Shown piece after piece: positions 332 to 22,012 of a stretch of DNA of 24,162 nucleotides. A program made the position numbers and the translations under genes. This DNA comes from a virus, in the IMG/VR virus record IMGVR_UViG_3300036770_007636, positions 1 to 24,162 of that record. One strand, given 5' to 3'. The notes below the pieces were generated by a model. It worked only from the letters and a program-made list of their open reading frames with translations, did no database searches and had not been told where the DNA came from. Position 1 is the stretch's first letter. Each line of letters starts with the position of its first letter.

Positions 332-3300
332 TTAATCTATCCAAGTAATGGACACATCAAGCTTTGATGGATCTTTCTTTGAGGCTTGTACAGTTGTTCT
401 TGAATAATTTCCACACTTATAGCAGAATGTATTATTCTTGACTTTATGTGCTTCTCTATTTCCGCAAGATGGACAAACCATACCCACAGGAAGCATTGAT
501 TCTGCAGTTCTGTCAAACGAAGGCAATGCAGTCTTCAGATAAACATCAGAATCGACTGTAGCTGATAATCTAACCATTGTTCTGATATCAGAAGCAACAG
601 GACCCATTCCAGGGGCAGCAGGAGCAGCAGGTGGCATTTCTGTAGGAGCTGTAGCTGCACCTAAACCTGTATCTGGTCCAAGTCCCATTGGTTCTTCTTC
701 AGGTGAAGACTTACCCTTATCTCCCATTGAAACTAGTTCAATTTGTTGAAGAATTTTGTAAGTAGTACCACAGCTTTGACAGTCAGCATTTGACTCAGAA
801 ATATTAACATCATCAGAGCCACAAACTGGGCAGACTGAACCCCAAGGCTTCTTTTCGCCTGGTTCTGCAATAGCATCCATATCAGCTGACTCATTCATAT
901 CAGCACCACCAGTAAGTGATGAAATTCCTAAATCACCACCAGCAGGGGCACCAGCACCTAAACCTGGATCAACTGGACCAGCCGCAGGTCCAGCAGGAGC
1001 AGGAGCACCCATCCCTGGAGCAACTTGTGCATATTTTGCTAAAATACTGTCTCTTCTATTCTTTCTAGCAATTCTAGCACCTTCGGTCATAATAACAGGC
1101 ATTTCAACGCCTTCTTCAGCATTCATTTCGCCATGTTCTTCATCAGTCTTGAATGTTTTTGAAGAAGATGTTGAAACTGTTGCAGTAACATCTCCATTTT
1201 CAGAAACAATTAGGTCTGTAAATGAGAATGTTCCTGGGTCAACTTGGAATCCATGTCCTTGCAAAACTTCAATTGCCTTTTGCTTAAATGATTCATCAAA
1301 ATTGCTGTCGCTAGGTTGTACACCATCTAAATCTTCAGCTCTACACATAAATCTAATACAGTCAGATTTACTTTGAGTAACAGTCATTCCAGCTGTTCTT
1401 TCAGAAGCAATTACTGCCTTAGCAACTAACTTTTCAGCAACTTCAAATTCTTCACAAAGCCTCTTTGCAGCTTTTGCAATTCTTCTTGTGCTAATTCCAA
1501 AGTTTGTTGAGTAATCTGCTAACCAGCCAACAACGTTATCAGAAATGTTCTTTGTGGATGCAGTCTTGACACCCCAGAATTCTCTTCTTGCTCTTGCTCT
1601 CAATCTTCCATCAGTTGCAGTAGCTGTCTTTGCTCTATCAATAGCAGCCATCAATTGCTTTTCTGGCATAGCATCTACAGAATCAACTACTTCATCAGGA
1701 GTAGTTCCAGTTTCTTTTGAAGACATAGCCATAGCAGAAATTGCTGATTTAAGATCATCTTTAGAAATGAGATCAGCATCAGCATCTACAGCTGACATAA
1801 GAGCAGACTTTAGTTCTTCAGTCTTTGAAGGGGCAGTCTCAACATCTAAACCTTCATCAGGTACGTTTGCTTGACCCATGAGAAGTTCGGCAATTCTTGA
1901 AACGCCTTCCTTGGTCATTTCACCTTCTTCAACTGCAACTGAAAGAGCATCAGCAAGATCTTTTGCAGTAATTTCAGAAGTAACAGCAGCACCTAATTGC
2001 TTAAGAACAGCAGACACAGAATTTTCTGGTGTTGCGTCTCCGCCAAAGAAGTCTGTCTTTTCTGCCTTGTCTGCTTCCATTTCAGTACCTGCAGCAGCAG
2101 TTCCAATCATTTCTGGAAGCATTGGTTCTTGGGCTAAAGTTTGAGCAACTCTAACAATTGTCTTTGGTGTTTCCAATGAAGAGATAACAGCTTTGCCTAA
2201 TGCAGTTATTGTTGCTGTCATAATTTCAGTTGCATTAGCAGAACCTTCCGCACGATGGTTTGATAATTGTTTTTCTAAAACTTCAGTTGGAACTCCGTGA
2301 GTAACTTCATCAACAAGCTGGGTCAAAGATTTACGTACTTCTTCATCTTTAACTCTTCTGCCATAAAGCCCAGCGTCGCCGAGAAGAATTTCTGTTACTG
2401 CATCTTGGCTTGATCCAGTTTGCTTTGGTGCTAATTGTTTTTCACGAACTTCATTGACAACCCCAGTGTTTTTTGACTTAACACCTTCGTGTAAATTATC
2501 ATATGATTCACCACTTCTAACTTCATCAAGTTGCTTTTCTCTGTCATCAAGTCTTTCTTTAACATCAAGCAAAGCTGTCTTGACAAATTGTGAATAATCT
2601 TTAAGCAATTCAGCAGCAACTCTTGTACCTTGTCCATTTTCCATCAAACCAAGTTGGTTTTCATTAAGGATAGGTTCCCAAGCAGTTCTTTTTCCATTTG
2701 TGTAACCTGTGATTGAACCATCAGTAGAAAGAACAACTCTATTACCTGCATTGTCTTCGACTTTAAAATCGATTGTAACTGCAGCAGCAAGTTTTTTTCT
2801 TTGCTCTGATGCAATCTTTGCAAAGTGATCCATTTGATTTCTGCTCCCCGCCACGAAAGGCGTATTTGTTTTTATATTTTTGCTTCTTTCATTAGCAATT
2901 CTAATGACATTATCAATACTTTTTTGAATTTGTGTACTATTATTTAAATTTTCTTTTAAATTTAAAATACTTTGTGTCAAATTCAGAATTTTATTGGAAG
3001 ATGAACCGTTTTGAGCACTAGCAAAAACTTCTCTTTTACCATCTCTTGAAGCCCATACCAAATTATGAACGCTGGAGGCTAATGCAACACCGCCTCCAAC
3101 TTGGCTGCCTTGATCTCCAGAATAAGTAAGATCCATTATTTTTCCAACAGATTCGGTAGGCGCATAATTTGCCAAACCAATATTGGCATTCATTGGAGAA
3201 GCTTGTGGTGCTTGTCCTTGTTGCATATTTTGAGGTTGATTGATTTGTTGAGGTCTTTGTCCAGAACCAACATCAATTCCATCATCGATCATATCTTGCA

Positions 3301-4468
3301 TAGTAGATTGGAGTTCAGCCATTGATTTGGTGACTTTACCTACGTGCCCTAAGTCAACATTGTCTTTTCTTGCAAACATATTCATCACTGCAACTTCCAA
3401 GAAGTTCAATGATAAATTAATCAAGTCTAGTATATTTAATCCAGAGGCAGGGTCTATACCAAGTGCTGTCAAAACGGCTTGAACAGTTGAATTTTGATTT
3501 GCCCCAGCCCCAGCTAATAATGGACCACCTACAAGAGTACCAGCTTGTTGTGCTAATCTTACTGCAGTTTTTGCTGTAGAATTTGCTACTCTTAGACAAT
3601 TTTCGTATTCTGTTCTAGATGAAGATTCTTGAGGAGATCCTTGTAATGCTAAAACTATATTAGCTGAAATTTCATTAGCTTTCTTTTCTAAATTCATTGC
3701 AGCATCAAGAACATCGTCTACATCATAGATTTCTTGGATTTCGCAAGATTCAAAAGCACCATCGCCCACACAGCTCAATTCAATAAACTTTACACCGTAG
3801 TTCTTTTCGTATGCTTTTTTGCCAGATTCAGGGTAAATTTTTCCTTTATATCTCTTGAGGTGATCACAATAATCTCTTTCGGTATATGCTTTATTTCCAC
3901 AGACTGAACAAACACCCCATTCAACACTAGCGCCCATTGAAACATCGTGGATAACACCAGTGCGAATATTTCTTGCAATATCTGGATAAGCCTCTTCATC
4001 TACAAAGAAAGTACAATAAACACAGTCTTCTTCTTCATCCCATTCAGCATATACAACCATTCCTTTTGCTTGTTCAATATCATCATTTTTGTGGTTTGTA
4101 TAAATTGGCACACCTTCAAATGTTTTATAAGATGGGATTTTTTTGCCTTTAATTTCAACTTCTTTAAGTAATTCTTCTTTAGAGAAAAGGTCACCATTAG
4201 CATTAACCACGTCAGCATCAATTGCTCTGGCTCTAACCCATAAAAGTTTTGCACCTTTACGAGCCTGCATTTCTTTAACAATGTCGAAATCTTTGTATTT
4301 TTCTAGGACTTCTTTTGGATCAGCGTAGAGAGATTGAAGACCGATTTTTGCAGCTTCTCTCATATTTGATGAAGCAGTCTTAATAATATAATCTCTAGCT
4401 ATATTTCGGTCATTTTCGTTGAGGAAACTATTTATTGTAATAGCTCCTCCTTTTGCAACCTTGTACAT
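332..4468 (-). CDS. Giant prohead maturation protease fusion (protease + long extension + zinc ribbons)
   Basis: Predicted product is 1378 aa. Residues about 70-250 look like a phage prohead (assemblin/HK97-type) serine protease: RARAIDAD at 80-86, the candidate catalytic His126 in YTNHKN and the candidate Ser177 in DVSMGAS. A metal knuckle (C187, C190, C201, H203) follows directly. The remaining 1100 residues are not a usual part of this family, whose members are about 200-400 aa. They hold a Gln/Pro-rich stretch (403-425), a helical acidic middle with four EKQL motifs (644-647, 676-679, 732-735, 936-939), a globular-looking segment at about 960-1110, Pro/Ala/Gly linkers (1151-1180, 1271-1292) and two C-terminal zinc ribbons (C1213/C1216/C1230/C1233 and C1332/C1335/C1349/C1352). 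The extension could include the internal scaffold, as in lambda C/Nu3; that is inference. The start at 4468 has an AAGGA Shine-Dalgarno sequence 8 nt upstream. Confidence 0.8.
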   Translation of the reverse strand: MYKVAKGGAITINSFLNENDRNIARDYIIKTASSNMREAAKIGLQSLYADPKEVLEKYKDFDIVKEMQARKGAKLLWVRARAIDADVVNANGDLFSKEELLKEVEIKGKKIPSYKTFEGVPIYTNHKNDDIEQAKGMVVYAEWDEEEDCVYCTFFVDEEAYPDIARNIRTGVIHDVSMGASVEWGVCSVCGNKAYTERDYCDHLKRYKGKIYPESGKKAYEKNYGVKFIELSCVGDGAFESCEIQEIYDVDDVLDAAMNLEKKANEISANIVLALQGSPQESSSRTEYENCLRVANSTAKTAVRLAQQAGTLVGGPLLAGAGANQNSTVQAVLTALGIDPASGLNILDLINLSLNFLEVAVMNMFARKDNVDLGHVGKVTKSMAELQSTMQDMIDDGIDVGSGQRPQQINQPQNMQQGQAPQASPMNANIGLANYAPTESVGKIMDLTYSGDQGSQVGGGVALASSVHNLVWASRDGKREVFASAQNGSSSNKILNLTQSILNLKENLNNSTQIQKSIDNVIRIANERSKNIKTNTPFVAGSRNQMDHFAKIASEQRKKLAAAVTIDFKVEDNAGNRVVLSTDGSITGYTNGKRTAWEPILNENQLGLMENGQGTRVAAELLKDYSQFVKTALLDVKERLDDREKQLDEVRSGESYDNLHEGVKSKNTGVVNEVREKQLAPKQTGSSQDAVTEILLGDAGLYGRRVKDEEVRKSLTQLVDEVTHGVPTEVLEKQLSNHRAEGSANATEIMTATITALGKAVISSLETPKTIVRVAQTLAQEPMLPEMIGTAAAGTEMEADKAEKTDFFGGDATPENSVSAVLKQLGAAVTSEITAKDLADALSVAVEEGEMTKEGVSRIAELLMGQANVPDEGLDVETAPSKTEELKSALMSAVDADADLISKDDLKSAISAMAMSSKETGTTPDEVVDSVDAMPEKQLMAAIDRAKTATATDGRLRARARREFWGVKTASTKNISDNVVGWLADYSTNFGISTRRIAKAAKRLCEEFEVAEKLVAKAVIASERTAGMTVTQSKSDCIRFMCRAEDLDGVQPSDSNFDESFKQKAIEVLQGHGFQVDPGTFSFTDLIVSENGDVTATVSTSSSKTFKTDEEHGEMNAEEGVEMPVIMTEGARIARKNRRDSILAKYAQVAPGMGAPAPAGPAAGPVDPGLGAGAPAGGDLGISSLTGGADMNESADMDAIAEPGEKKPWGSVCPVCGSDDVNISESNADCQSCGTTYKILQQIELVSMGDKGKSSPEEEPMGLGPDTGLGAATAPTEMPPAAPAAPGMGPVASDIRTMVRLSATVDSDVYLKTALPSFDRTAESMLPVGMVCPSCGNREAHKVKNNTFCYKCGNYSRTTVQASKKDPSKLDVSITWID

Positions 4469-4593: not shown

Positions 4594-6966
4594 TTATAGA
4601 TATTCCGAATTTCCATCACCCATACCTGTTCGCTTTTTGATAGCTTTTATCAAAACATTTAAACAATCTTGAGGGTGATCATTAATTTCTTTGTCAGTAA
4701 ATCTGATAATAATCCATCCATTTGCAGCTAATTCTGAATCTCTTCGCTTATCTTTTGCTATTTTGTCAGGGTTGTTATGCCAAATTTCACCATCAGCTTC
4801 AATTCCTATCTTAAGGTTAGGAATAGCAGCATCTAATTGATAATCCATCGTTGGTCCAGCTGAATATTGTGCATAAAGTGGAAATGGCATATTTAACGAC
4901 ATAGTCAAACCATAAAGTTTTTTCTCTAAACTAGTAAACATTTTTGGCTGTTGAGTGACATCTATTTTCTTTTTGGCATATCTCTTGATAGATTCATTCT
5001 CATTATTTGCATAATGATAAAATTCTTCTAATGCATAATTGTTTAGTGGATGAGAATTATCTCCACCACAAAGAGGCATTTGTAATGAACCAAACAAACC
5101 ATCGTATTCACTAGGTAGTGGACCAAGCGAGCCTCTTCCTGTAACTGGAGTCAATGACATTAAGAATCCTTCATGAGCTGCAGACTTTATTCTTTTACTT
5201 GCGGTTCTAACACTAGAATTCTTAGCATTGATTCTTTCATCGTAAATTTCATTTATGACAGAGCTTGCTAATTTATAGTTTTTTGTCATAACTGAAGCAG
5301 TAGGGGCTGCTGCGCCAGGGGCTGGAGCTGGAGGAATTGCTCCACCGGCAGGAGGTGTGGCAGCACCACCGACTGCTAAATCTGCTGGAGGAGGAGCACC
5401 CATACCACCAGTTGCATCAGGAGATCCAGCTCCAAAACCTTGTCCTGTAACTCCTCCGCTTTGAAAACTTAAAGAAATGTTAGGGGTGCCAAAAGATTGA
5501 TCGTTAACAAAGTTTGCACCTTGTTCGAATCTTAATCTTTCAATTTCTTGATCAGAATCTAAGCCAAAGGCTTCGATAAGAGAAACATTAGAAATAACAC
5601 CGTTTTGATTTGCAGTAACAAGCATTTGCAACTTACCAGTATCATCACGCAATTGAAGATCATCGAATTTAATTTTAGGATAAACTAATTCGTCCTGTCC
5701 TCTTTCACCTTCAATTACAAAGCCATTCCATTTAGCTACTGGCATAAAAACATTTTGTTCAATCCAGTGTGCAACTTCTCTTCTAAATGTTTCCAATCTT
5801 TGAGCCATAGCAAGAAGACCAACTTGAGCGTTTCCGTAAGTTGGACCTTCGCCATTTAAAAGAGCTTTATTTAACATTACACCATCTAAAATTTCTTGTT
5901 CAATTAATTCGAACTCACCAGTAAGAGGGTGTATTTTACCTGTTGCTCCATACCATTCGAGATCAAAGTTGTGGTGAGTAACAAGAGTCAAGTTAGGGTC
6001 ATTTGCAATAGATGCTAATTCATCCTGGACATTATCAATATCTTCTTGAGATGCCGGTCTTGTATCACTACCAATTTTTACAACCTTGATTGGCAAGATG
6101 AGACGTTCGGCAATCATATATTGAGCTTGGCGTAATTTATCTTTATAGGTCAAAATTGGGAACAATGGTCTGATCATAGAAATTCCATAATCTTCCCATG
6201 GGTTTGATCCATATTTAAAATGATGAATAGAAATTGGATTAAGCTTTATAGGATTACCTTGCATAATCATTTTTTTAATATCATCAGGTATTTTGTCGTA
6301 GATTTCTTTTGGATGTCTTTCGTTGACAATTCTGATTTCTTCTGCAGATGGTCTATAAGCATAACTACCAGGCTGATCAATCATTCCTGGACTCTTAATC
6401 ACAGAATCTGGATTTAAAATTGAAATGGATTTCCATGTGGCGCCATCATGCTCACATTCTTGATTTTTGTCGTTATCCCAGTTTGAACCGTGACAATGAG
6501 GACAATCAAGTGAAAGTAATACAAAAGAGTCGCCCAATAAATGATAAGTTTTGGAAATCTCTGGAAGCCACTTTTGAAAATTAAGTGATTCTACTAACTT
6601 TTCAAAATAATCTTTGACATAAGATGAAGAACATTCTAATTTCCAACCAGAGAAAGGATAATTAGTATAGAAATTGATGGCTGCAGCAATTTTCGGCTCG
6701 TTATTTCTCCACCAGTTTGCCCAAAGATAAACTTCACGACGAGCATTTGGGATCTGAAAAGATGATGGAGTTAAGAAAGGCGAATAGAAATTTGGTGATG
6801 TAGTTACCGTGTTTATGCTTGCAGTTCTTGTAACACTGGGTCCTAAGCCAAGACCAATTCTGCTACTAGCATAATTTTTGTCTACAGTTGATGTTGGGGT
6901 TGTTGCTCCTGATACTTGTGTTGCTGCTGTTCTGATAGCAGAAGCCAATGATGTTCTATTTGCCAT
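4594..6966 (-). CDS. Portal protein with C-terminal DUF559/Vsr-like nuclease domain
   Basis: Predicted product is 790 aa. Residues about 60-500 resemble a phage portal: an early NNEPKIAAAINFYTNYPFSG segment, the LLGDSFV strand, a long helical stem region around 355-410, and the GVISNVSLIEAFGLD segment. A Cys/His knuckle (C155, C158, C171, H173) is inserted. A Gly/Pro/Ala linker spans about 503-557. Residues about 675-780 match the DUF559/very-short-patch-repair nuclease fold (PD-(D/E)XK): SLEKKLYGL, D712 in QLDAAIP, E723 and D725 in GIEADG, H730, KDKRRD at 738-743, and GWIIIRF at 750-756. Usual portals are 400-600 aa and lack this domain. The portal ring normally closes the capsid vertex and conducts DNA; a nuclease tethered there could act during packaging or ejection (inference). 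No Shine-Dalgarno sequence is visible; a TATAAT ends 7 nt before the ATG. Confidence 0.85.
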   Translation of the reverse strand: MANRTSLASAIRTAATQVSGATTPTSTVDKNYASSRIGLGLGPSVTRTASINTVTTSPNFYSPFLTPSSFQIPNARREVYLWANWWRNNEPKIAAAINFYTNYPFSGWKLECSSSYVKDYFEKLVESLNFQKWLPEISKTYHLLGDSFVLLSLDCPHCHGSNWDNDKNQECEHDGATWKSISILNPDSVIKSPGMIDQPGSYAYRPSAEEIRIVNERHPKEIYDKIPDDIKKMIMQGNPIKLNPISIHHFKYGSNPWEDYGISMIRPLFPILTYKDKLRQAQYMIAERLILPIKVVKIGSDTRPASQEDIDNVQDELASIANDPNLTLVTHHNFDLEWYGATGKIHPLTGEFELIEQEILDGVMLNKALLNGEGPTYGNAQVGLLAMAQRLETFRREVAHWIEQNVFMPVAKWNGFVIEGERGQDELVYPKIKFDDLQLRDDTGKLQMLVTANQNGVISNVSLIEAFGLDSDQEIERLRFEQGANFVNDQSFGTPNISLSFQSGGVTGQGFGAGSPDATGGMGAPPPADLAVGGAATPPAGGAIPPAPAPGAAAPTASVMTKNYKLASSVINEIYDERINAKNSSVRTASKRIKSAAHEGFLMSLTPVTGRGSLGPLPSEYDGLFGSLQMPLCGGDNSHPLNNYALEEFYHYANNENESIKRYAKKKIDVTQQPKMFTSLEKKLYGLTMSLNMPFPLYAQYSAGPTMDYQLDAAIPNLKIGIEADGEIWHNNPDKIAKDKRRDSELAANGWIIIRFTDKEINDHPQDCLNVLIKAIKKRTGMGDGNSEYL

Positions 6967-10165: not shown

Positions 10166-10980
10166 TAATCAATATCATCAAAGTTTATGTCAATACTATT
10201 ATAAATTTCATTAATAGTTTTTGCTCTTGATTGAGCTTTGTTGTTCATATCACTTTGTATATTTTTCTTGATTGCCATTCTTTCGTTTCTAATCTTCTCT
10301 TGATTAGCAATTCTCATTGACTCACGATTGTCCAGAGCAGATGGATCAATCATTCCAAATGTTGAATTGAATTCATTGTCTGAAGATGTTCTTAAGATAG
10401 AATGTGCTCTTGATGAAACAACTGAAGATTGTCTCAAGTTATTGATTTGGCTTTCTTCCCAAGCTTTATGACGAGATGCTTTAGCTTCTCTTGCTCTTTG
10501 ATTTTCAATAATTGATTGTTCACTAGTTGAAGATTGTGAATTTAAGAATTCTTCTGAAATTGCAATCATATCTGGGTTGAAAATAGATGCTGACCTTGAA
10601 AGCATAGCATTCATATATTCATCTGCCGAAAATGCTTTTAATCCACTTGTAGTTGTTCTTGCATTTTCACCTTGATCAAATTGTGAACCAGCTCTTCTAA
10701 TAGCACCAAAATCTTGTGAAAGAATTCTATCTTCAATTGTGGTGTCTCTTAGATCTTGATAAGTAGATGCACCTTGAATCTTTTCCCAAGATTTGTTGAT
10801 TGTGTTAGCTTCTTTTGTAAAACCAATATTTTGTTTAGAAATTGATTGTCTATTTGCAGTTGAATTTCTCTTTAACTCAGCGTATGGATCTTCTTCAACT
10901 TCAACTTGAGCGCCAATAAATCTCTTTTCCAAAAATGATGGAATGTTTTCGATTTCTGATACTTTTCTAAATCTGCTCAT
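10165..10980 (-). CDS. Unknown Ser/Asn-rich protein, 271 aa
   Basis: Family not recognised. The protein is polar, rich in Ser, Asn, Arg and Glu, with no Cys cluster and no membrane segment. The middle and C-terminal parts (about 150-265) look helical and charged (ENQRAREAKASRHKAWEES; NQEKIRNERMAIKKNIQSD). It ends with an acidic tail, SIDINFDDID. An AGGA Shine-Dalgarno sequence lies 9 nt before the ATG. The gene follows the strong hairpin at 11005-11046, so it may be expressed at a different level from the gene upstream of it. Confidence 0.8.
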   Translation of the reverse strand: MSRFRKVSEIENIPSFLEKRFIGAQVEVEEDPYAELKRNSTANRQSISKQNIGFTKEANTINKSWEKIQGASTYQDLRDTTIEDRILSQDFGAIRRAGSQFDQGENARTTTSGLKAFSADEYMNAMLSRSASIFNPDMIAISEEFLNSQSSTSEQSIIENQRAREAKASRHKAWEESQINNLRQSSVVSSRAHSILRTSSDNEFNSTFGMIDPSALDNRESMRIANQEKIRNERMAIKKNIQSDMNNKAQSRAKTINEIYNSIDINFDDID

Positions 10981-14629: not shown

Positions 14630-16741
14630 TTATCGTCTATTCAGGTTGACCATTTTTGATTTAGGTAATCGAACCATAATTTTTGATGTTAAGCATTCAT
14701 AAGCTACAGCAGCTACAGCATCACAAATATCATCTTTATATCCAGAAAGGGCTTCGATGTAATATCTTTTACCTTTCCATTTTTTTTGTAAAAACAAAAA
14801 CTGTATTTTAGCTTCTTGAATTTCGTTTAAAGAAATTAATTTTTTATCTTGATCATAATATTCACCACCAGAAATATCATATATATCAATTCGATCATCA
14901 CGAACTAATTGAGATAATTCTGCATAAATATTTTCTTTATATTCTTTATTGAATTGACGTTCTACAATTGGAACTCTCATAGACTGTAGTTTTATGATAG
15001 ATGATTGAGAATTCCATTGATCAATAGATACTTGTTTAAATCTAAATTTATTATGTAAATCAATTACATAATCTTCAACTTCACTTTCTTTAACTGGTTG
15101 ATTTTTAGTTTTAGGATTCCAAAAGTGTATATGGTCAATTACAACTCTTTTTAATGGTTTGAAATCAGGACCAATTTGTCCATACATATTTTCAGTATGA
15201 GCAATTACTAGAGCATAATAGTCAGAAGTTCGAGCTGGATCCAAATGACAAAAATACTCAAAATTGCCTTCAGCTCTTTCTTTTCTTTTTACCATTGACA
15301 TAGAAGAGAACATTCTATCTATATCATCAGAAACAAACATCGGATCAGATGAAGAAGCACCAAATTCTGCTCCATATTGCATTTGAAATTCTTGAGGATC
15401 TTTTTTCTTTTGCCCATCTAACCATTCTTTGTCAATATTTGGATTAGTAAGCCAAGTTGGAAGTCTCATAACAAGAGTGGTAGGGTCTTCTTGTCTATTT
15501 TCATGTAAATCGTAAAGCAACCCAATTGGACCTTTAGGGTTGGAAAGAAGCATCATTTTTCCATCTTTACCGAATGTAGCAAGAGATGGTTTAAGATCAT
15601 CATAAAGAGCATAATCAACACCAGAATCAGGATTGTCTCCTGCCATAGCTGCAACTTCGTCCATGATGATTGACCAACAAGTTAAACCAACAAGACCAGA
15701 AGCATTACTGGAACCACATCTCAGCACCAAAGAACCCGCAAACAAATTGATATTCTGCTCTTTTCTTCTTACATTCTCTTCTCTGTCGTGTTCGGTATAA
15801 AATCGCATTTCAAGTTCTGTATCTTTACCAATATAAGGAGCAAAGAAAGGAGATGCTAAAACTGTTTGCTTGATTTTAGAGAAGATTGCTTTTTTAGCCT
15901 GTTCTTCATTACGTGCAACATTAAGAAGGACAACCTCATCAAATTCCATTAATCCATATCTTGCTTGAGGATGACCCATAGAAATTAATCTATAAAGTTC
16001 GTAAAGAGCCATAGCAGAAACAAGGAACGATTTTCCAGAACGTCTACCAAGCACTAAAACTAATTCTTCAAATTTATATCTTTTGGTGCATTTTTCTTGA
16101 ACTTGCATCCTTAATTTTGGATCAAATTCTTCAGAATAAAGTAAATCAAATTCACTTTGGAAACCATCAATAATTGGTCTTGATTCTAATATTTCTACTT
16201 GTCTTTCAGCATCAGGGTTTGTAGCTTCATCTTTGGCAAATTTATATCTTTCTTCTCTGACCTTATTATCAAGACGTTTACATTGGAGACAAGGTGAATT
16301 GACAACATTAAAAATTGTCTTAAATTGTCTACCTTCTGAACGAGCTTTTAAGAAATCGTTTTCATTTTTCTGAATATAATGCCAAACACATCCTTTGCAA
16401 TCTTCTTGGTTGTCAGATTCATCTATAACAAGATTTGTATTGCCTTCTTGTCCCATATAAAAACATTTAAGAATAAGTTTTTGCCAAGGATAAGGTTTAA
16501 GATTACAAAAATATGGATGTTCAATAAAAGTGATGATATCTACAATTTGATCAGGATTGAATCTATCCTTAGGAGGCTTGGGAGGAGGAGCAACTTCTGA
16601 TCTTGTGGCAGGAGCAATTTCATCAACAAAATCATCTGCATACTCTGTATCCTTAAACAATGCAGTGACAGAATTAGCTTGTTGAAGTAATTGATTTCTT
16701 AATTCCGTAGGAGATTTAGGAACTTGGGTTTGTTTTCTCAT
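14630..16741 (-). CDS. terL: Terminase large subunit (packaging ATPase and nuclease)
   Basis: Predicted product is 703 aa, the DNA-packaging motor that docks on the portal, hydrolyses ATP and cuts concatemers. ATPase motifs: Walker A GRRSGKS at 232-238, Walker B SIIMDE with D361 and E362, and a coupling-like LLSNPKG at 398-404. RNase-H-like nuclease acidic residues: D501 in CHLDPARTSDYY, D574 in VSIDQWNSQ, and D671/D674 in DDICDAVA. An insertion before the Walker A region carries a four-Cys knuckle (C115, C118, C151, C154), unusual for this family, and the N-terminal 60 residues are Pro-rich. The start overlaps the previous stop by one base (TAATG), so expression is coupled to the small-terminase candidate. 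All key catalytic residues are present. Confidence 0.96.
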   Translation of the reverse strand: MRKQTQVPKSPTELRNQLLQQANSVTALFKDTEYADDFVDEIAPATRSEVAPPPKPPKDRFNPDQIVDIITFIEHPYFCNLKPYPWQKLILKCFYMGQEGNTNLVIDESDNQEDCKGCVWHYIQKNENDFLKARSEGRQFKTIFNVVNSPCLQCKRLDNKVREERYKFAKDEATNPDAERQVEILESRPIIDGFQSEFDLLYSEEFDPKLRMQVQEKCTKRYKFEELVLVLGRRSGKSFLVSAMALYELYRLISMGHPQARYGLMEFDEVVLLNVARNEEQAKKAIFSKIKQTVLASPFFAPYIGKDTELEMRFYTEHDREENVRRKEQNINLFAGSLVLRCGSSNASGLVGLTCWSIIMDEVAAMAGDNPDSGVDYALYDDLKPSLATFGKDGKMMLLSNPKGPIGLLYDLHENRQEDPTTLVMRLPTWLTNPNIDKEWLDGQKKKDPQEFQMQYGAEFGASSSDPMFVSDDIDRMFSSMSMVKRKERAEGNFEYFCHLDPARTSDYYALVIAHTENMYGQIGPDFKPLKRVVIDHIHFWNPKTKNQPVKESEVEDYVIDLHNKFRFKQVSIDQWNSQSSIIKLQSMRVPIVERQFNKEYKENIYAELSQLVRDDRIDIYDISGGEYYDQDKKLISLNEIQEAKIQFLFLQKKWKGKRYYIEALSGYKDDICDAVAAVAYECLTSKIMVRLPKSKMVNLNRR

Positions 16742-18918: not shown

Positions 18919-18924
18919 ATTATA
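18919..18924 (-). promoter_or_regulatory. TATAAT 6 nt upstream of the sigma-factor ATG
   Basis: A perfect TATAAT on the minus strand is followed by six T and then the ATG, the spacing expected for a leaderless transcript. It overlaps the last codons of the delta gene. No -35 match is visible and the gene has no Shine-Dalgarno sequence. Confidence 0.25.
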
Positions 18925-19921
18925 CAGATGCCAGTTTTGAAATTAGAATAGGTATAGAATGATTTACAGAACCATTTGTGCGTAAATCAACTATGTTGTC
19001 TACTACCATAGTAATCATTTTAGAAAACTGGGCTGGATTATATAAATTCTCTTTGCTTAATTGAATACGAATTCTTATCGGATTTTGAGCTTTGATAGTG
19101 AATGTAGACTCTTTGTATTCATCATTTAAATACTTGCCTAAAAGATCCCGTAATTCAACAATTTCTTGCACTTCTGTTAGTGGATGAAATGTCTTGTTGG
19201 TTTCTGATATGACCAACATAAAATTCAGTTGACTCAAAAGAACTAACAAAAAGCCTTGTTCACCCATAGAATCAATAAGAAGATTTATTTTTGTCAAGCA
19301 ATAATCTAGATCTTTATTCATCAGTTTGTCGATAAATTCGAATATGTCGCATTCTTCATTGAAAGATGCATTTGAAATATCACGCAAAAATATTTTGTCT
19401 GTGTAGGAAATGATCTTTTCTAATTCTTTAAACAAAATATCAATGTCATAGCATAAGATTTCTTTCTTACTGCCAGACTGTTTTGATTTGATACGTAAAA
19501 TAGGGCAAATTTCAACAAGATGATTCAAAGTCTCACCGTTTATATTTGCATTGTTCTTCATGACAAAATTATTGATATGACGCTTTAACGAATTTGAATC
19601 TCCCGCAAGTGGATAACTGCAGTCAAAAATCAAATTATTCTTTTTAGCTTTGGCAATAAGAGACAATCTTCCGTCGAAACTATCATCCTCGTACAAAATG
19701 ATATGTTTGATTCCAAGCTTTTCACTTTTTTCTTGAATGAGCTTAATGTCTTCGTTAGAAATGTTAGTATGAATGTATATATTGTTGGTATCAAAGAATT
19801 TAGAATAGTTATTGATAATTTTTTCAACATTGTTATCGAAACAAAGAATAAGACCAGGGAATTCTTCCTTGATCTTATTCAATGCTAATGTGGTTGATCC
19901 GTAGTAAATTCTTGGAAACAT
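18920..19921 (-). CDS. DNA polymerase III delta (HolA)-like clamp-loader subunit
   Basis: Predicted product is 333 aa, the usual length of HolA. In bacteria delta opens the sliding clamp within the clamp loader. The N-terminal third has the expected alternating layout (RIYYGSTTLALNKI; IKHIILYEDDSFDGR) and lacks a Walker A motif, as delta does. Residues about 191-240 (CDIFEFIDKLMNKDLDYCLTKINLLIDSMGEQGFLLVLLSQL) match delta's conserved F-x-L-x-D-A-L…A-L-x-L-L-x-x-L…Q-G motif leading into the collar domain. The gene begins one base after the clamp stop (TAATATG). Similarity is moderate, and the adjacent clamp is a main support. No ATPase loader gene is in the window, so it may work with another phage or host subunit. 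Confidence 0.75.
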   Translation of the reverse strand: MFPRIYYGSTTLALNKIKEEFPGLILCFDNNVEKIINNYSKFFDTNNIYIHTNISNEDIKLIQEKSEKLGIKHIILYEDDSFDGRLSLIAKAKKNNLIFDCSYPLAGDSNSLKRHINNFVMKNNANINGETLNHLVEICPILRIKSKQSGSKKEILCYDIDILFKELEKIISYTDKIFLRDISNASFNEECDIFEFIDKLMNKDLDYCLTKINLLIDSMGEQGFLLVLLSQLNFMLVISETNKTFHPLTEVQEIVELRDLLGKYLNDEYKESTFTIKAQNPIRIRIQLSKENLYNPAQFSKMITMVVDNIVDLRTNGSVNHSIPILISKLASV

Positions 19922-19922
19922 A

Positions 19923-21020
19923 TTAATCCATTGGGAACAATAAATGCTTAAAGTTTTCAGCTTCTAACATTAATAAAATAAAATCGTTATGCTTGATAAA
20001 ATTTATTTTGATTTTCTTACTATCAAGTAAATCTAAAGCTCTAATCAAATGTGAAGATACATACGATACTGAGAACAATTCATAATTATCTATATCAATC
20101 GTATCTACCACTGCATTCTTTTCATTACTATTTCCTGAAATGACAAGCTTATTGATATCCAAATTTAAGCTTATCATATGAGAATTTGCAATGCTCGATA
20201 CAAACTTCACTGACTTGACTAGCGCATCTTTATCTAACTCAAGAGATAAGAAAAATTCATCACTAAAGAATTGATTGAAATTGGAGAATATTTTTTCAAA
20301 AGTATTCTTCTCAAGATTGCAAAATAGTTCTCCACCATCCCAAGTCAGATAAAGCTTGCTGTTATGAAGAGAAAAAACAACACCTGATACTTTTTCAACA
20401 TAATACAAAACAATATCGGAAATATTTTTAGAAATTAGATATGATGGCTGTAATTCATATTTCTTACCAAATACACTAATTCTATGTTTATCAGAAGATT
20501 GAGTATTAATTTTTCCATCTTCGATAAACCATAGGATAGAAGTATAAGGATGTTCGTCAAAATCAGGCGCACAAGAAAACGAAGTCATCTTTATACTGTG
20601 GACAAAATCGTCAACAGTTATATCCAATGGTTCTAAATTATTTGAAAAATCTACTGCGAAGTTATCCACAGGAGCAGAAGCCAAAGATACTCTGGTTTTT
20701 TTATTACCAAAGATTAATAGATTTTCATCAGCATTGTAGATAAATTGAATCTCTTCGGTTGGAAAATTATTTACTGCATTATAGAAAGAAGAAATGTCTA
20801 AACCAAAAGTGCCATCTTCTGTGGGTTCGACATTCTTTAATAAAAATTTAGAGCAGCAAAAATTGTTCTCTGATTGAACATAAAGTTTGCCATCAGAAGA
20901 ATGAAAAATAAGACTACTCGATGATGTTTTGTTTTCACGCATCGAAAGTTTAGATTTTTCAATTTTATTAAGTAAGGCAAAACATAAGAGATGTTCTGCC
21001 TTATTCAACTTAAATTTCAA
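19923..21020 (-). CDS. DnaN-like DNA polymerase sliding clamp (beta subunit)
   Basis: Length is 365 aa from a TTG at 21020, matching bacterial DnaN (about 366 aa). It would form a ring around DNA that holds the polymerase. Recognisable parts are the N-terminal KFKLNKAEHLLCFALLNKI helix and strand, the domain II signature DGKINTQSSDKHRISVFGKK (168-187, compare A-T-D-x-H-R-L-A of DnaN), and the C-terminal FSVSYVSSHLIRALDLLDSK with the final LLFPMD. The frame is open 20 codons further upstream, inside the previous gene. I chose TTG at 21020 because it overlaps the TGA of the upstream gene (TTGA) and has an AAGGG site 8 nt upstream. Clamp and delta next to each other suggest a phage replisome with bacterial-type processivity parts. 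Confidence 0.82.
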   Translation of the reverse strand: MKFKLNKAEHLLCFALLNKIEKSKLSMRENKTSSSSLIFHSSDGKLYVQSENNFCCSKFLLKNVEPTEDGTFGLDISSFYNAVNNFPTEEIQFIYNADENLLIFGNKKTRVSLASAPVDNFAVDFSNNLEPLDITVDDFVHSIKMTSFSCAPDFDEHPYTSILWFIEDGKINTQSSDKHRISVFGKKYELQPSYLISKNISDIVLYYVEKVSGVVFSLHNSKLYLTWDGGELFCNLEKNTFEKIFSNFNQFFSDEFFLSLELDKDALVKSVKFVSSIANSHMISLNLDINKLVISGNSNEKNAVVDTIDIDNYELFSVSYVSSHLIRALDLLDSKKIKINFIKHNDFILLMLEAENFKHLLFPMD

Positions 21021-22012
21021 TGTAGTTGCCCTTGGAATTGGATGTGTACACCAGGAAGTACCATTCCAACTTCTTTCCAAATATTAGAAACAAATGTATC
21101 TTCATTTGCACAAGAAATCAACATATTATTTTCGTAATAATTCCAAGCACTGTCAACTTGTCGAAGAACATCCATTTTGTTGACTTTAAGCTTTGTAACA
21201 CCATTCATTTGGCATGCAGTTATAACTTCTTGGATGTTTAACCAGTCGATTTGTCTTGGTCGCCCTGTTGTTGCACCGTACTCTTGACCAATTTCTCTGA
21301 GTTGCTCAAATCGCTCGTCATCTTTTTGGTATCCTTTAGCTCCAACATAGGTAGAATAACACTTGATGACCCCGACAACATCCCGTACTTGCATAAAATT
21401 GAAACCATTATTTAATACTGCTCCTACACCAGTGTTTGAAGAAGTGACATAAGGATAATCACCAAAGTCAACATCAAGCCAATATCCTTGAGCACCTTCA
21501 GCTAAAAACTTCTTCGGTTCTGAATGAATTAGATCGTGCATATTGACAAGATAGGGTGCTAACTCAGGTACATCTTTGGCACGAATTCCTGTACGGGCCA
21601 CTTTGTCTCTATAACAAGGGCCATTACCAGTGCGAGTTGTTCCAATAGTTGTATCTTTGGAATCTTCGTCAATATGTTCTTTGGTAATTATATGGGCGTT
21701 TTCTGCAATCTTTAGAATCGATGTGTCAAATCCAAATCCTTCAAGATACTCAAGTTCGTCAAATAATTTTTGCGTATTGATAACACAACCATTACCGATG
21801 ACACTAGGAACACCATGCAGAATGCCGCAAGGAACAAGGTGTGTAACAATTTTCTCTCCATTGAGGTAAATTGTATGACCAGCGTTGCCTCCACCATTAA
21901 AGCGGATGACATAATCATAATTACCAGTACTTACCATTTGGTTGGCAATTTTACCTTTGCCTTCATCCCCATATTGCATACCAATAACTACATCAACAAT
22001 TGAAGTTTCCAT
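21017..22012 (-). CDS. Adenylosuccinate synthetase family enzyme (PurA/PurZ-like)
   Basis: Predicted product is 331 aa, about 100 aa shorter than bacterial PurA (430) and similar to archaeal PurA and phage PurZ (about 340). The family joins aspartate to IMP (PurA) or to dGMP (PurZ, the step towards 2-aminoadenine DNA) using a nucleoside triphosphate. Motifs: GDEGKGK at 15-21, NAGHT with H46, IGTTRTGNGPCYRDKVAR at 123-140, EGAQGYWLD at 172-180, PYVTSSNT at 187-194, GATTGRPRQIDW at 246-257 and NKMD at 278-281. The catalytic Asp (D16) is present; PurZ characteristically has Ser here. NKMD matches the guanine-recognition motif, so GTP use is likely. It is first in the replication operon. Canonical IMP-using PurA, or an intermediate type, fits better than true PurZ. 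The gene ends in TGA. Confidence 0.92.
   Translation of the reverse strand: METSIVDVVIGMQYGDEGKGKIANQMVSTGNYDYVIRFNGGGNAGHTIYLNGEKIVTHLVPCGILHGVPSVIGNGCVINTQKLFDELEYLEGFGFDTSILKIAENAHIITKEHIDEDSKDTTIGTTRTGNGPCYRDKVARTGIRAKDVPELAPYLVNMHDLIHSEPKKFLAEGAQGYWLDVDFGDYPYVTSSNTGVGAVLNNGFNFMQVRDVVGVIKCYSTYVGAKGYQKDDERFEQLREIGQEYGATTGRPRQIDWLNIQEVITACQMNGVTKLKVNKMDVLRQVDSAWNYYENNMLISCANEDTFVSNIWKEVGMVLPGVHIQFQGQLH

Follow-up and report, generated by a model that had tools for sequence, protein, structure and literature searches.

Portals of tailed phages are usually regarded as channels, as starters of assembly and as sensors of head filling, and in the solved structures their C-terminal side forms the crown, which faces the interior of the head. 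An extra C-terminal domain on a portal is known from portal-MuF fusions, as in the protein described here, but MuF is not a PD-(D/E)XK nuclease. In T4, endonuclease VII at the portal releases stalled Y-DNA (PMC10893049), while gp4, the head-completion nuclease that acts in head assembly, is a REase-fold DNase required for packaging (PMC7824862; PMC1189080). Endonuclease VII with the gp20 portal thus offers a nuclease acting on packaging DNA at the portal vertex, a location likewise proposed below for the present domain, but it is a separate protein of another family, whereas here the union is covalent and the domain is of the PD-(D/E)XK type; gp4, too, is a small protein in its own right, with TnsA or T7 endonuclease I and not DUF559 as its relatives. 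The DUF559/MTES_1575/Vsr-like nucleases (3r3p, 3hrl, 1vsr) have the same fold and the same conserved acidic and His residues as the domain considered here; those known are free-standing or joined to other enzymes, whereas this one forms the tail of a portal. The portal core, in turn, is shared with tailed-phage portals of the Portal_Mu family and with gp14 of phage G, a close cultured relative. Both halves belong to known families, but a conserved protein that unites them is undescribed in the open-access literature searched, in which no portal-nuclease or portal-DUF559 fusion was found.

The window is the whole stretch of DNA analysed, 24,162 nucleotides of a viral record (IMGVR_UViG_3300036770_007636, positions 1 to 24,162). 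The features on which the argument depends are as follows.

4594..6966, minus strand: fused portal-nuclease ORF, 790 aa
5512..6795, minus strand: portal core, residues about 58-485 (Portal_Mu and phrog_16240 matches; Foldseek; dN/dS 0.02-0.08)
5287..5511, minus strand: Gly/Pro/Ala-rich linker, residues about 486-560, fast evolving (sequence; dN/dS 0.13-0.64; predicted disordered)
4942..5286, minus strand: partly helical segment, residues 561-675, of putative function (AlphaFold2 model and motif scan)
4627..4941, minus strand: DUF559/Vsr-like PD-(D/E)XK nuclease domain, residues 676-780 (Pfam, predicted core fold, Foldseek, profile match to 3hrl and 3r3p)
4741..4833, minus strand: conserved active-site stretch with D712, E723, D725, H730, D739 and R742 (invariant in alignments of relatives)
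332..4468, minus strand: neighbouring protein of 1378 aa with an N-terminal head maturation protease domain (phrog_18299, 3.5e-20)
14630..16741, minus strand: terminase large subunit, TerL (phrog_2, 6.2e-28)

The end of the fused ORF, window 4594-4944 on the minus strand, corresponds to residues 675-790 of the 790. The preliminary description had read this ORF as a portal fused to a DUF559/Vsr-like nuclease with an apparently intact active site, citing D712, E723-x-D725-G, H730, KDKRRD and GWIIIRF; all of these lie in the translated ORF where they had been placed, and for both halves the sequence profiles and the predicted structure agree with that reading. Absent from that description was the segment of 115 residues (561-675), faster evolving, which sits between the linker and the nuclease.

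The portal half is recognized by Portal_Mu from Pfam (residues 232-467, E 3.7e-8, above the cut-off) and by the portal family phrog_16240 (residues 55-420, 4.8e-33). Its gene adjoins the head protease gene, and TerL lies within the same block. When the full-length AlphaFold2 model was submitted to Foldseek, solved portals were the top matches, although the model is weak (pLDDT 55), too weak for positioning the nuclease relative to the portal ring. Neither a MuF match nor an Endonuclease_7 domain was found in the fused ORF in Pfam at E 0.1. Within the core, residues 155-173 (window 6452-6504, minus strand) contain a C-x2-C...C-x-H group, the Cys and His of which are invariant in alignment A2 and which may be a zinc site. 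Many portals of the clade carry large intein-like insertions (L133, L134, L135, L122, L273, L275, L280, L283, L284, L406, L415-L418, L422-L425, L431, L435-L437), several of them in some ORFs (L275 reaches 1841 aa) and frequently at shared sites, e.g., GEGPNF|C and RFFY|C.

In the C-terminal half, the Pfam profile DUF559 matches residues 706-776 (8.5e-7, above the cut-off) and the REase profile MTES_1575 matches residues 708-776 (E 2e-9), at 37.9 bits slightly below its cut-off of 38.2; both match 12/12 members of a wide alignment spanning remote relatives, and there is a profile match to 3hrl and 3r3p. The fold that had been supposed from the motifs is borne out by AlphaFold2, which predicts for residues 560-790 an alpha-beta-beta-beta-alpha-beta-alpha core; the block means of pLDDT within the nuclease are about 79-90. 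Compared with the PDB by Foldseek, this model matches best the catalytic domain of I-Bth0305I (3r3p), with 3hrl (ngo0050) and Vsr (1vsr) among the leaders; some mitoribosomal proteins, with poor rmsd, rank between the nuclease matches.

The residues expected to carry out catalysis are almost without variation. D712, E723, D725, H730, D739, R742 and D743 are invariant in 52/52 full-length proteins and in the 12-member remote set, and the motif pattern is matched by 110 of 121 fused ORFs; inspection of the other 11 by eye revealed two interrupted by inteins and nine that retain E723 and H730. The substitutions seen are D725 to E in two remote relatives (L423, L426) and R742 to K in L283. In L425 and L437 an intein directly follows the catalytic E of E-x-D-G, the extein reading E-C-D-G. 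Inteins prefer conserved active sites of important proteins, and their presence inside E-x-D in two relatives points the same way as the alignments. The active site stays essentially invariant while the remaining domain drops to 21-38% identity, and, judged from these comparisons, it is under strong constraint. Metal-dependent DNA cutting is the predicted activity of the portal tail, the active site of which is apparently intact. It could be argued that the domain only binds DNA, as a tether or a length sensor inside the head, and that cutting has been lost or is irrelevant, given that Vsr-like folds can drop catalysis and retain nucleic-acid binding, as in FASTKD4 (PMC11879112). The retention of the acidic residues and H730 across very remote members and the occupation of the catalytic motif by inteins speak against such a loss, which we regard as rather improbable.

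The same fusion is widespread among relatives, as the preliminary description had suggested looking for. IMG/VR was scanned three times with queries of the portal core only, which could not favour fused forms, and otherwise with the whole protein or the nuclease. Among the best 80 loci of each scan, from which relatives without the searched patterns would escape, at least 121 distinct fused ORFs from many metagenomes were found, some of them by the portal-only queries; many of the records are near-identical, so they should not be counted as independent samples of equal weight. Within the set, portal identity falls to about 45% and nuclease identity to 21-38%, and the contigs reach 548 kb, so the clade includes giant phages. 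Among the matches listed, every clade portal that is not truncated at the end of its contig has the nuclease, except L062, in which an in-frame TGA lies within the linker and the nuclease follows immediately behind in the same frame, so that a genuine split and a sequencing error are both possible. This stop between the two parts is what could be cited for an assembly or gene-calling artefact joining separate genes; the recurrence of the fusion in independent metagenomes, its recovery by portal-only queries and the congruent distances of the two halves described below rule such an artefact out, to the point that we consider its probability negligible.

Beyond the clade, distant portals free of the nuclease are those of Bacillus phage G, Tunturi_5, LR745208, Vibrio phage D69 and Rctr197k, unlike the portals of this clade; the phage G portal, at 29-32% identity, ends in a Gly/Pro-rich tail without a nuclease. 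In the Rctr197k portal (L207), a Gly/Pro-rich linker after about residue 620 is followed by another C-terminal stretch of no identified family, and the portal tail may be a site of domain exchange. The fusion was found in none of 50,697 annotated phage records, and in cellular genomes in none of the 27 loci listed by the nuclease query, which gave only DUF559-type proteins lacking a portal.

Inheritance of the two halves was compared directly. The portal and nuclease distances are correlated with a Mantel r of 0.93, a value reached in 0/5000 permutations, and the two trees have their main groups in common. Estimates of dN/dS, which are rough, several dS values being near saturation, were 0.015-0.10 for the nuclease, 0.02-0.08 for the portal core and 0.13-0.64 for the linker; the nuclease is thus close to the portal core and mostly well under the linker. 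In this phage clade the portal core, a flexible linker and the DUF559/Vsr-like nuclease form a single polypeptide that is inherited as one unit. Since the closest fold is that of I-Bth0305I, a selfish homing endonuclease of that kind, inserted into the portal gene, has to be considered. Its fixed position, the lack of an intron or intein context of its own and its vertical inheritance are at odds with a mobile element, as is the absence of domain-free portals among the complete ones listed for the clade; moreover, in 14/16 large contigs the portal tail is the sole DUF559 domain found. A mobile homing-type nuclease was accordingly rejected on vertical inheritance and fixed site, and we hold it to be very improbable. 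Two giant contigs (G010 222737-222967, G014 10384-10614) encode a further DUF559 protein, in a frame of 303 aa.

How might such a tail be used? By analogy with known portals, the protein would assemble as a ring of 12 subunits, and the nuclease domains would hang on flexible tethers at its C-terminal side. It is proposed that they cut DNA at the portal vertex while the genome is being packaged or the head completed, acting, e.g., on branches, on damaged ends that would jam the motor or on the DNA end left at the vertex, and that this activity is built into the portal. Vertex processing is favoured by the T4 precedents of endonuclease VII and gp4 at the portal vertex. The fusion is present in at least 121 ORFs and in all complete clade portals but one, and the invariant active site, the congruent distances, the low dN/dS of the nuclease and the inteins in E-x-D are what would be expected of an enzyme needed at this place. 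On the other side, a nuclease facing the interior would endanger the packaged genome, unless its action were limited to special structures or to a brief time, and the branches that stall packaging are outside the portal and so perhaps beyond the reach of an interior domain. We give vertex cutting by the portal nuclease only slightly less than an even chance.

The preliminary description had also suggested that the portal nuclease could cut DNA at headful termination, where an additional cut may be made, or replace a separate head nuclease. That it takes over the headful cut of the terminase is not supported, since TerL retains the expected RNase H-type acidic residues: D501 and D574 are conserved in 13/13 sequences (the window and relatives), and the C-terminal DD-x2-D group is kept wherever the alignment covers it. 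The role of the portal nuclease would hence be additional to that of the headful cutter, and the headful cut would still be made by TerL. Comparison of TerL with solved structures gave no matches. The TerL frames of L475 and L476 (1077 and 1085 aa) have their match split in two, which suggests inteins. RusA-like resolvases were found above the cut-off in three contigs and below it in two more, so the portal nuclease is probably not the only branch resolvase and debranching may happen elsewhere; a role as sole Holliday-junction resolvase is disfavoured by these matches. Neither RuvC nor Hjc was found in the related contigs with searches whose controls worked; in the search for endonuclease VII the control itself was silent.

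A restriction-like check could also be envisaged, in which the nuclease cuts incoming DNA that lacks a phage-specific modification and so prevents the packaging of host or competitor DNA. The DUF559/MTES_1575 domains do belong to the REase fold, and one remote member has a further match to the PvuRts1I-like family, a group of modification-dependent enzymes. A diaminopurine genome is unsupported, however, as the PurA-like protein of the window falls far under the PurZ cut-off (124 vs 300 bits), and we think quality control of this kind a poor prospect.

The neighbouring gene raises a different possibility, delivery, in which the nuclease is carried into the head by the portal, freed by the head protease and ejected with the genome against host, plasmid or competitor DNA. 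The 1378-aa neighbour, with its head maturation protease domain, might be the enzyme that processes the portal. A motif R/K-x-A-S/A/G, chosen post hoc from its recurrence in these proteins, is enriched in the portal and in the neighbouring protease protein. In 69 non-redundant fused proteins it was seen 37 times before the portal core vs 14.6 expected and 25 times after the nuclease vs 4.6, while the linker showed no enrichment (24 seen, 23.3 expected); it is also common inside the portal core (60/69) and hence not diagnostic. Nearly all of its occurrences in the linker region come from the window's subclade, and there they lie in the helical segment: KLAS (565) and RTAS (587) of the window ORF, within residues 561-675, resemble putative head-protease sites. 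If the motif is a protease site, trimming in most relatives would affect both ends and leave the nuclease joined to the portal, and the window's subclade could cut between the two parts; the pattern is a lead rather than proof. Putative sites between portal and nuclease in the window's own subclade count for delivery and against vertex cutting. Most remote relatives, however, lack such a motif in the Gly-rich linker, and their tether is thus probably retained; the pattern suggests that the nuclease stays attached in most of them, which weakens the idea of ejection, and packaging a protein does not need a portal fusion. We consider delivery unlikely, although less so than the check on modification. 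In the protease-scaffold protein of L062 (ORF from 10636), an intein-like insertion lies directly after VSMG, the presumed motif of the protease active-site serine.

Both the architecture and the constraint on it are well supported, and the comparisons of sequence and predicted fold suggest that DNA is probably cut at the doorway of the head in a way not described before. The wider proposition, that in this clade of huge phages the portal is a DNA-cutting machine whose tethered Vsr-like nucleases perform an essential DNA-processing step as the head is packaged or completed, or are set free and injected, has no described precedent, and we regard it as evenly balanced. If it is true, the portal would gain an enzymatic role through a clade-wide, strongly constrained nuclease, and the clade would offer a way to test directly how giant genomes are cleared of branches, trimmed or checked while they are packaged. 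The fusion would also mark out a large phage lineage that is apparently uncultured and has contigs of up to 548 kb.

Farther along the window, positions 18920-21080 on the minus strand encode adjoining DNA polymerase III clamp-like and delta-like (holA) proteins of the phage. The adenylosuccinate synthetase-like protein (21017-22012, minus strand, 331 aa) has a strong PurA-family match and a PurZ match only below the cut-off, and its ORF overlaps in coordinates that of the sliding clamp, the clamp being called from TTG.
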